Below, piece after piece: positions 438-15,840 of a stretch of DNA of 51,813 nt. Numbering within the stretch: position 1 is the stretch's first letter; every line of letters starts with the position of its first letter. Both the position numbers and the translations under genes were made by a program. The stretch is from Dehalococcoidia bacterium (lineage in GTDB: Bacteria; Chloroflexota; Dehalococcoidia; Lucifugimonadales; GCA-2717565): contig SHYH01000004.1 of assembly GCA_009692865.1 (NCBI GenBank), positions 1 to 51,813 of the forward strand. The letters are read 5' to 3'. Below the pieces are notes generated by a model. It worked only from the letters and a program-made list of their open reading frames with translations, made no database searches and was not told where the DNA came from.

Positions 438-1313
438 TCAGGGTGGGGTTGACCCCTGCTCCCGCCTTCCACCGGCGCGTGTCTGTCCGGCGGGACAGAT
501 GTCCAGCAGGCAGCAACCTTCGCAGAGGGGGGTCTTGCGGCAGGTGGCCTTGCCGTGGGCCACCTGCAGGGCGTGGTACTCGTTGAAGAGAGGTGCCTCG
601 CGGGGCAGGGCCCCGTGGAGCAAGTCCTGCCAGTCCTGGTAGGTAAGGCCTTGGGGGGTGATGCCCAGTCGCTCGAAGATGCGGCGGGTGTAGGCGTCCA
701 CCACGAAGAAGGGGTAGCCTGCCGCGTAGAGGAGGATGTCGTCGGCCGTCTCCTTCCCGATGCCGTGGATGGAAAGGAGCTCCTGCCTCAGCAGTTCGGC
801 GGGTTGCCGAAGGAAGGCGTCCAGGTGGTCCTGGTGGCGGCTCCCCAGGTGGCGTCTCCCTCGCTCTGTCGGGGCGTCGGGGAAGAGGGCCACGTCATTC
901 TCGACCAGGGTCACCGACTTGGCCTCGATGAAGCAGCGCCCTCGGTGTTCCGTCAGGAGGAGGTCCAGGCGGCTCTCCCCGAAGGTTACCTCCCGCCGGA
1001 CCGTCTCATACTTGGCGAAGGGAGGCGCCTGGCCCTGGCGGATCGCCTCGGCCAGGACCGCGGGGGGGAGGTGGGCGTCACAGCTCACTAGACGTCCCTC
1101 CGCCTCCACGAGGACCATGTCGAAGGGGGTCTTTCGGGGTCCCGTCTTGGGGGCCAGGAACACCAGGTTGCCGGGCTGCAGGAGCTCACGGAGCCTTCCG
1201 GAGTTGGGAAGGTGTGCCGTCACGGACTGCCCGTTCACCTCCGCCAGGACAGCGAACCGGTTCAAACGGTGCGACAGGACGGCCTTCTGGAGGGGAGAAG
1301 GGAGGAGCACCAT
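438..1313 (-). CDS. Chimera: SfsA-like nuclease N-terminal part fused to endonuclease III-like C-terminal part
   Basis: The 291-residue protein starts at ATG 1313, where an AGAGGT ribosome site lies 8 nt upstream and the sequence matches normal SfsA starts; the frame extends upstream to 1379 without support. Residues about 1-70 resemble the SfsA OB-fold. Residues about 70-155 resemble its PD-(D/E)XK domain, with RLDLLL and FIEAKS giving the D and E-x-K residues. After RGRRHL the sequence changes to the C-terminal half of endonuclease III-type glycosylases: HhH motif SIHGIGKETADDILL, catalytic-Asp motif VVDAYTRR, and iron-sulfur cysteines spaced C-x5-C-x2-C-x5-C near the end. The C-terminal part of SfsA and roughly the N-terminal half of endonuclease III are missing. 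It could be a genuine fusion, an in-frame deletion between neighbouring genes, or an assembly error. It is divergent from pyrF. Confidence 0.75.
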   Translation of the reverse strand: MVLLPSPLQKAVLSHRLNRFAVLAEVNGQSVTAHLPNSGRLRELLQPGNLVFLAPKTGPRKTPFDMVLVEAEGRLVSCDAHLPPAVLAEAIRQGQAPPFAKYETVRREVTFGESRLDLLLTEHRGRCFIEAKSVTLVENDVALFPDAPTERGRRHLGSRHQDHLDAFLRQPAELLRQELLSIHGIGKETADDILLYAAGYPFFVVDAYTRRIFERLGITPQGLTYQDWQDLLHGALPREAPLFNEYHALQVAHGKATCRKTPLCEGCCLLDICPAGQTRAGGRREQGSTPP

Positions 1314-14501: not shown

Positions 14502-14534
14502 AAGCGCCCCAGGCTTCTGAAGCCTGGGGCGCTT
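14502..14534 (+). terminator. Terminator between hydrolase and thiolase-like genes
   Basis: A 16-nt arm starting AAGCGCCCCAGG (14502-14517) pairs perfectly with its complement at 14519-14534 around a single central base. The plus strand continues TGTGTT and the minus strand TGCTTTCG, so the U-tracts are weak, but the position between convergent genes supports termination. Confidence 0.65.
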
Positions 14535-14564: not shown

Positions 14565-15725
14565 TTAGAGGGTGTTCTCGGACCCGAGAACTAGAGTGCA
14601 CATGTCACTCATTTGGCCTCCTCAACCGTTCACCATGCCGAGGTCGTTCCTGGCCACCTGTCGCACGCCACCGCGGCCCATGATCTGTCGGGCCGCCTCA
14701 ATGACGTGGCGGAACCCGCCAGCGTCCCTCGGCTGGCCGGTGGAGAGCTGTCCGCCGTCGGTATTGATGGGGAAGGCGCCCTTGTAGGTGGTGTCGGTGG
14801 ACTCGAAGAAGGGCCCGATCTCACCCTTGGGGCAGAAGCCTGCGTCTTCGAGGCACACGGCCTCGAGGATGGTGTATCAATCGTAGAACTGGGCGAACTG
14901 CATGTCCTTGGCCCTGTACCCAGCCATCTTCAGGGCATCGGGCGCGGTCATGCTGACGGCGCTGGTGGTGGTCCTTTCAAGCTGCCATGGGTGGCTTCCG
15001 TGGCTCACACCCACTGCGGCGCCCAGGACGTATACGGGCCGGTTGGGCATGGCCTTGGCCCGCTCGGCGGTGGTGACGATGACCGCTCCGCCGCCCGCAG
15101 CCGGCATAACGCTCTCCAGCATCTTCAGGGGCTCGTTGATGTAGCGGGAGTTCATCACGTCTTCCAGAGTGATGGGCTGACCCTGGAACGCCGAGTTGGG
15201 GTTCTGGAGAGCGTTAAACCGCTGGTTGGCCGCTATGCGGGCAAGCTGCCGCTCGGTGGTGCCGAACTCGTGCATGTGGCGGCGGTAAAGAAGCCCGTAG
15301 CCGTTGTTCGCCCCTGCGGCGGGGCCCAACCAGGACTCCCACTCGCTGCCGGTGCTGGCCCCGGGGCCGCCGGTCTCCAGAGGCATGTACCCCGCGGCCT
15401 CTCGTGCCTGGGTCAAGGTGACCACAATGGTCTGGGCGAGGCCCGCGTTGATGGCCGCCGCCGCGATCTCGATGCAGGCGGCCCCGGTGGCGCCCGCCAG
15501 TTGCACTCCCTGGCAAAAGCGGGGTTTTATACCCATGTACTCGGCGGGACCTCCGGGGAACATCTCGCCGACCAGTCCGTCCACGTCCTCCTTACGCAGG
15601 TGGGCGTCGTCTAGCGCCATCTTCACAGCCTCGGCCATGAGTCCCAGAGTGCTCCGGCCAGGTATGGTGCGGCGCGTTGGAATCTCGCTAATACCCACGA
15701 TAGCTGCCACTCCCCGTAAAGTCAT
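14565..15725 (-). CDS. Thiolase-like (SCP-x/lipid-transfer type) acyltransferase with two in-frame UGA codons
   Basis: One continuous frame of 387 codons runs from ATG 15725 to TAA at 14565-14567. It is interrupted only by TGA at codon 283 (14877-14879) and codon 368 (14622-14624). It matches the thiolase-like lipid-transfer family along its full length (usually 380-395 residues): GRSTLGLMAEAVKMALDDA, GATGAACIEIAAAAINAG with the presumed acyl-accepting Cys, RRHMHEFGTT, then QFYD-UGA-YTI, EDAGFCPKGE, INTDGGQLSTGQPRDAGG, and finally VNG-UGA-GGQMSDMCTLVLG. Relatives usually have Cys at the first UGA (YDCFT). The promoter and ribosome site (AAGGAGGTGG) are near ideal, which argues against a long-dead gene. 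Options are selenocysteine or other recoding, a recent pseudogene, or base errors. If UGA stops translation, the product is 282 residues (14877-15725). Confidence 0.7.
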
Positions 15726-15811
15726 GAAACCACCTCCTTTCCGAATCCCGACGAGGTTGCCTTCCTATCGCACAGCAAAGGGAGACACGGGTCCGGCGCC
15801 CCGTATCCCAG

Positions 15812-15840
15812 AGCATACTCGCCCCTCTGGAACGTGTCAA
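15812..15840 (-). promoter_or_regulatory. Consensus promoter of the thiolase-like gene
   Basis: TTGACA (15835-15840, minus strand) and TATGCT (15812-15817) have a 17-nt spacer. Predicted start about 15805, some 80 nt upstream of the ATG. Confidence 0.7.

Follow-up and report, generated by a model that had tools for sequence, protein, structure and literature searches.

The window analysed here is the whole stretch of 51,813 nucleotides of contig SHYH01000004.1, from an assembly of a Dehalococcoidia bacterium (GCA_009692865.1). It contains a gene for a thiolase-like protein, read on the minus strand from an ATG at 15725-15723 to a TAA at 14567-14565, with UGA at codons 283 and 368. Scanning the frame over the whole gene revealed no stop and no frameshift beyond these two codons. 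The preliminary description, made from the sequence alone, had claimed a single frame spanning a full thiolase-like protein and interrupted by UGA at these positions only, and this is confirmed. It gave no strand and counted 387 codons; we count 386 codons and the TAA. The features are as follows.

14565-15725, minus strand: gene for a thiolase-fold (SCP-x/Ltp2/Sal-like) protein, very likely a selenoprotein, of 386 codons plus TAA with two in-frame UGA codons
14877-14879, minus strand: UGA codon 283 (proposed Sec283), motif YD-U-YT, aligned with the catalytic Cys304 of CtSal, the bile-acid C5 side chain aldolase of Comamonas testosteroni, and with the Cys of the HDCF motif of SCP2-thiolases
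14622-14624, minus strand: UGA codon 368 (proposed Sec368), motif VNG-U-GG, with the oxyanion-hole glycine two residues on
15812-15840, minus strand: promoter-like TTGACA-17-TATGCT, a consensus match
15733-15739, minus strand: ribosome binding site AAGGAGG, read from the sequence; a paralogue is preceded by the similar AAAGGAG
14848-14866, minus strand: SECIS-like hairpin of UGA283, 7-bp stem TCGAGGC/GCCTCGA, loop CGUGU, 17 nt past the UGA
14574-14591, minus strand: SECIS-like hairpin of UGA368, 7-bp stem GTTCTCG/CGAGAAC, loop GGUC, 37 nt past the UGA
14502-14534, minus strand: terminator-like 15-bp hairpin, a consensus match, separating the gene from a convergent alpha/beta-hydrolase gene

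The promoter and the ribosome binding site had both been claimed before and are both present; the pattern TTGACA-N17-TATGCT is observed once, for 0.2 occurrences expected from shuffles. As for stop codons, TAG is by far the commonest among the Pfam-supported genes of the window (12 of 18), with TGA used by four genes and TAA by two.

The C-terminal half of the predicted protein is recognised by Pfam as Thiolase_C_1 (140.8 bits). No specific NCBIfam model applies, the protein remaining below all cut-offs. Its AlphaFold2 model has a pLDDT of 91.7 and a pTM of 0.92, and the blocks past both UGA codons mostly score 92-98. The nearest solved structure by sequence is that of CtSal (PDB 9MYR, 271 bits), which is also the best Foldseek match (9myr_A, TM 0.89, E 5.8e-45, 41% identity in the alignment). 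In the alignment with 9MYR, gapless in this region, Tyr302, Cys304, Gln352, Thr389 and Gly391 correspond to Tyr281, Sec283, Gln331, Sec368 and Gly370, respectively, of the window protein. Over the family, Tyr281 and Gly370 are invariant and Gln331 is kept. In CtSal, Tyr302 and Cys304 of the YDCY motif form a catalytic dyad, the C304A, C304S and C304H variants being dead, and the backbone N of Gly391 has been proposed to form the oxyanion hole (PMC12329534). From the same alignment and from general knowledge of the superfamily, the Sec368-Gly-Gly stretch occupies what we take to be the Cys-x-Gly position of classical thiolases. The cysteine of CxG is catalytic in the latter, and SCP2-thiolases rely on the HDCF cysteine instead (PMC7682436).

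The window protein does not qualify as a true thiolase (acetyl-CoA acetyltransferase), which would require a nucleophilic Cys and the His of the GHP motif. The former is replaced by Gly, with Gly or Ala found at that site in the family, and the latter by Gln331. It does have the features of Ltp2/Sal-type enzymes, namely a thiolase fold nearest to 9MYR and 6OK1, the catalytic Tyr of YDxF/Y and no nucleophilic Cys. Nearly every gene of the family, tandem copies included, is directly followed by a gene for a DUF35/ChsH2-type OB-fold protein. The paralogue in the same genome has its own directly downstream (L100:1030-1458, minus strand), and no DUF35 gene was found adjoining the window gene. It is possible that the window enzyme works alone or that it borrows a DUF35 partner in trans. 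Enoyl-CoA hydratase genes were also observed near two family genes.

We searched 400 genomes from the phylum and 393 from the class for homologues and read their genes codon by codon. The paralogue (L100, G000:C50:18026-19177) is 68% identical to the window protein and has UGA at the same two codons. UGA at codon 368 was found in 51 distinct homologues from 29 genomes of Chloroflexota. One of these genes (L018) belongs to a named public record, Chloroflexi bacterium SB0661_bin_43, so that the group can be assigned to this phylum. A scan of public contigs with peptide patterns taken from the window protein reaches close relatives only, and the spread outside Chloroflexota was not properly covered. 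At codon 283, the same 51 genes have UGA in 15 cases and Cys (TGC or TGT) in 36, in keeping with the earlier proposal that UGA stands there for a Cys codon. The supposed YDCFT motif of relatives held only in part, as the closest ones have YDCYT and Phe occurs only in more distant ones. We looked for further inactivating mutations in the homologues and found none; in particular, none of the 51 genes has another in-frame TGA. All but two of the 51 genes end in TAA or TAG, whereas the relatives without UGA mostly end in TGA. A UGA position conserved among homologues, with conserved flanks, is a criterion for selenoproteins that is met here.

Another such criterion, the existence of Cys homologues, is met at codon 283 but not at codon 368. 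The 111 homologues without UGA mostly have Asn, Thr or Ser at codon 368, and never Cys. The preliminary description had doubted the second UGA because it matches no known Cys. It indeed has no Cys counterpart, yet it is the better conserved of the two sites. Furthermore, Sec368 is always paired with Cys or Sec at position 283 (51 of 51), whereas Cys283 is present in only 24 of the 111 other homologues. On the tree, the Sec/Sec state requires seven changes, which indicates that Cys and Sec have been swapped repeatedly at codon 283. Two genes inside the Sec clade (L159 of genome G560 and L163 of G415) have Asn (AAC) at codon 368, and both genomes keep tRNA-Sec; Asn probably reflects a loss of Sec in these cases. 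Tandem pairs of UGA-containing thiolase genes are present at six loci (L166, L167, L168, L170, L171 and L172), mostly with one DUF35 gene per copy. In the pairs of L168 and L170, codon 283 specifies Cys rather than Sec in one copy or in both.

Selection on the sequences downstream of both UGA codons was estimated from substitution rates. Between the two paralogues of the genome, dN/dS falls from 0.28 upstream of UGA283 to 0.21 in the stretch separating the UGAs and to 0.18 downstream of UGA368. In L166 and L167, a closely related pair, both the part upstream of the first UGA and codons 284-367 have a dN/dS of 0.04. Such purifying selection past both UGAs indicates that the protein is translated through both codons. 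Tests for reduced synonymous change gave mixed results from pair to pair. The reduction at the second site is significant in some pairs (p 1e-4, 1e-3) and absent in others, and it is borderline at codon 283 for the pair formed by the window gene and its paralogue (p 0.046).

The genome has what is needed to decode UGA as selenocysteine, since the criterion of SelA, SelB, tRNA-Sec and SelD is met in the assembly to which the window belongs (75 contigs totalling 1.41 Mb, 83% complete). The tRNA-Sec gene scores 70.5 bits and has the anticodon UCA, and SelB, SelA and SelD score 370, 558 and 384 bits, respectively. Of 46 tRNAs detected, none but tRNA-Sec carries UCA; the anticodons of tRNA-Cys and tRNA-Trp are GCA and CCA. 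The selD gene (L016/L219, G000:C74:24934-25857, minus strand) also encodes a selenoprotein, having a UGA in frame within CAG-U-ASK, and this UxxK site is known in SelD (PMC13188914). Seventeen other Pfam-supported genes of the window were checked for their stop codon, and UGA is the ordinary stop of four of them. Counted by hand, selA is present in 26 of the 29 genomes with UGA genes vs 255 of the 393 genomes of the class at large. The three without detected selA (G464, G493 and G676) all have tRNA-Sec. It is absent from G227 and G147, two near-complete genomes that carry the Asn form. In the window's own genome, a thioredoxin-like gene (650-988, minus strand) lies just upstream of tRNA-Sec (479-576) on the same strand (L001, G000:C22). 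The preliminary description had called for a search for these sel genes and for an alignment of codons 283 and 368 in close homologues. The former are all present, the latter are Cys or UGA and UGA, respectively, and each of its checks that was run favoured selenocysteine.

Both hairpins proposed in the preliminary description exist. The first is present as claimed, with its loop 17 nt past UGA283, and the second has a stem of 7 bp rather than 8. In isolation, they have minimum free energies (MFE) of -11.6 (z -4.9) for UGA283 and -9.8 (z -4.1) for UGA368. Both sites of the window gene satisfy a published bSECIS model, which calls for a stem of 4-16 bp, a loop of 3-9 nt with G in its first two bases, a distance of 16-37 nt from the UGA and an MFE of -7.5 kcal/mol or lower (PMC13188914). 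Compared with synonymous-codon shuffles of the window gene alone, the UGA368 hairpin is significant (P 0.017) and the UGA283 hairpin is not (P 0.15). Over the family, a hairpin fitting the model at -7.5 kcal/mol or better follows codon 368 in 36 of the 51 UGA368 genes, vs 3 of 12 genes without UGA368. The downstream folding has a mean z of -1.87 relative to synonymous shuffles in UGA368 genes, vs -0.25 in non-UGA genes. At codon 283, hairpins of -5 kcal/mol or lower are found in 11 of 15 UGA283 genes vs 6 of 53 genes with Cys or Ser instead of UGA, and five of the 15 pass the strict limit of -7.5. No hairpin fitting the simple model was found after UGA368 in L158, L181, L182 and L184. Two adjacent, competing hairpins, with loops at about 17 and 37 nt, follow UGA368 in several genes (e.g. 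L145, L156 and L166). The stronger of the two differs by subfamily, and the distal loop is often GGUC or GGUUC. Covariation in these two candidate hairpins is no more than suggestive. Both hairpins of the window gene are thus plausible SECIS elements, with support that comes mainly from the family rather than from the single gene.

Altogether, conserved UGA positions, the Sec machinery, selection through both UGAs, the fold and the motif positions are established by comparison. The best explanation is very likely that the window gene encodes a selenoprotein of the Ltp2/Sal branch of DUF35-associated aldolases, with both UGAs read as Sec. On this comparative evidence Sec decoding is nearly certain; it has not been addressed by experiment, and Sec insertion itself is inferred in the absence of peptide or selenium data. 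In this scenario, the tRNA-Sec and SelB of the same cell would read both UGAs, each directed by the stem-loop located just downstream in the coding sequence. Sec283 would take the place of Cys304, the catalytic acid of CtSal, and protonate the enolate. Sec368, at the CxG position, would be a second catalytic group beside the oxyanion hole, with Gly370 as the counterpart of Gly391 of CtSal. No nucleophilic cysteine would be used, Gly being present as in CtSal, and the selenols would give or take a proton or stabilise the enolate. On balance we favour a reaction in which a C-C bond is cleaved, or formed, next to an acyl-CoA thioester, but this is inferred without activity data and the substrate is unknown. 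What each selenium does, and whether a DUF35 partner is required, are likewise matters of inference. The strict pairing of Sec368 with Cys or Sec at position 283 suggests that the two sites cooperate, although common descent could also account for it. If they do cooperate, proton transfer and a reversible Se-S or Se-Se pair are both possible and cannot be separated on present evidence.

The second of these possibilities leads to a different view of the enzyme. The two selenols might form a redox pair, through a diselenide or, in the Cys283/Sec368 members, a selenosulfide, in which case the protein would not be an acid-base aldolase but an oxidoreductase or a redox-switched lyase. The pairing of the two positions described above is in its favour, as are their location within active-site motifs and the fact that known prokaryotic selenoproteins are mostly redox proteins (PMC13188914). 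However, both fold and motifs are of the kind found in C-C bond enzymes, with Tyr281, Gln331 and the oxyanion glycine all kept, and the coupling of 283 and 368 may only reflect ancestry. This alternative remains possible, if less likely than the acid-base reading, and we have no data on the Se-Se distance. One might also envision that UGA368 is a regulated stop. Sec would then be inserted at position 283 and part of the product would end at codon 367, yielding two forms, perhaps according to selenium supply. Bacteria usually recode UGA with less than full efficiency, and only 18 residues lie beyond codon 368. Nevertheless, this short tail contains the invariant oxyanion glycine Gly370, purifying selection acts on it and synonymous change there is reduced in several pairs, and UGA368 is kept in 51 genes, which makes a regulated stop unlikely.

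Alternatively, the UGAs might be read as Cys, Trp or Gly by a suppressor or reassigned tRNA. Cys would suit codon 283, given the Cys of relatives. Against this, UGA is confined to codons 283 and 368 in the 51 genes. Its use as a stop elsewhere in the window, together with the tRNA set, in which tRNA-Sec alone has the UCA anticodon, argues against a reassigned code or another suppressor, and we consider this hypothesis very improbable. As for a decaying gene or sequencing errors at the TGAs, which the preliminary description had left open, two stops in one gene of a metagenome-assembled genome would be ordinary if seen alone. The paralogue in the same genome, the occurrence in 29 genomes, the lack of any other lesion and the purifying selection after both UGAs all but exclude this explanation, without inspection of the raw reads.

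Selenocysteine at both positions thus remains the preferred reading. With the known prokaryotic selenoprotein families (PMC13188914), the window protein shares an in-frame UGA, a bSECIS-like hairpin downstream, a genome with SelA, SelB, SelC and SelD, and Cys homologues, in this case at position 283. In contrast, these families include no thiolase-fold or acyl-CoA C-C bond enzyme, and the second Sec of the window protein has no Cys homologue. No thiolase is present among the 119 families and subfamilies of the 2026 catalogue of prokaryotic selenoproteins (PMC13188914) or in the deep-Sep paper. The full-text literature searched mentions no selenocysteine thiolase, although an earlier computational listing in a groundwater MAG survey (Deng et al.) is not excluded. 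Given this absence from the catalogue and the literature searched, the family is probably new among selenoproteins, and its active site of a new type within the thiolase superfamily.

With few exceptions, the selenoproteins known so far are redox enzymes or related to such enzymes, and selenocysteine was previously unknown in the class of C-C bond cleavage enzymes. The present family is widespread; its catalytic residue has repeatedly switched between Cys and Sec, and its second Sec is without a Cys precursor in the relatives seen. The question of why selenocysteine is used instead of cysteine can thus be put to the test in a non-redox reaction, one for which homologous structures have been solved. 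It is tempting to speculate further that this is a C-C bond cleaving family with two active-site Sec residues, the first in place of the known catalytic Cys and the second without a Cys ancestor in those relatives, in which selenium does what sulfur does not, through acid/base or nucleophilic chemistry specific to selenium or through a diselenide switch. For now we incline slightly against this bolder reading. In practical terms, many genomes of Chloroflexota would have such enzymes truncated by standard gene calling, at codon 282 or 367.

Among the enzymes of the superfamily, CtSal (Sal-Shy(DUF35), 9MYR) shares with the window protein its fold and length, the YDxY motif, a Gly where thiolases have their nucleophile and a Gln in place of the second Tyr of Ltp2. 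Most family members also have a DUF35 partner, unlike the window gene with no such gene adjacent. CtSal has Cys304 and Thr389 where the window protein has Sec283 and Sec368, and a steroid substrate has not been shown for the latter. The Ltp2-ChsH2(DUF35) aldolase of Thermomonospora curvata (6OK1) likewise shares the fold and the catalytic tyrosine (Tyr294, equivalent to Tyr281) and, with most of the family, the DUF35 association. It differs by its YDHF motif, with His in place of Cys or Sec, and by Tyr344, which is Gln331 in the window protein. As for the SCP2-thiolases (HDCF) and the classical thiolases (CxG), they differ from the window protein by their nucleophilic Cys in the N-terminal domain and their GHP histidine, replaced by Gln331. 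The sites of their second catalytic Cys coincide with the two Sec positions of the window protein.
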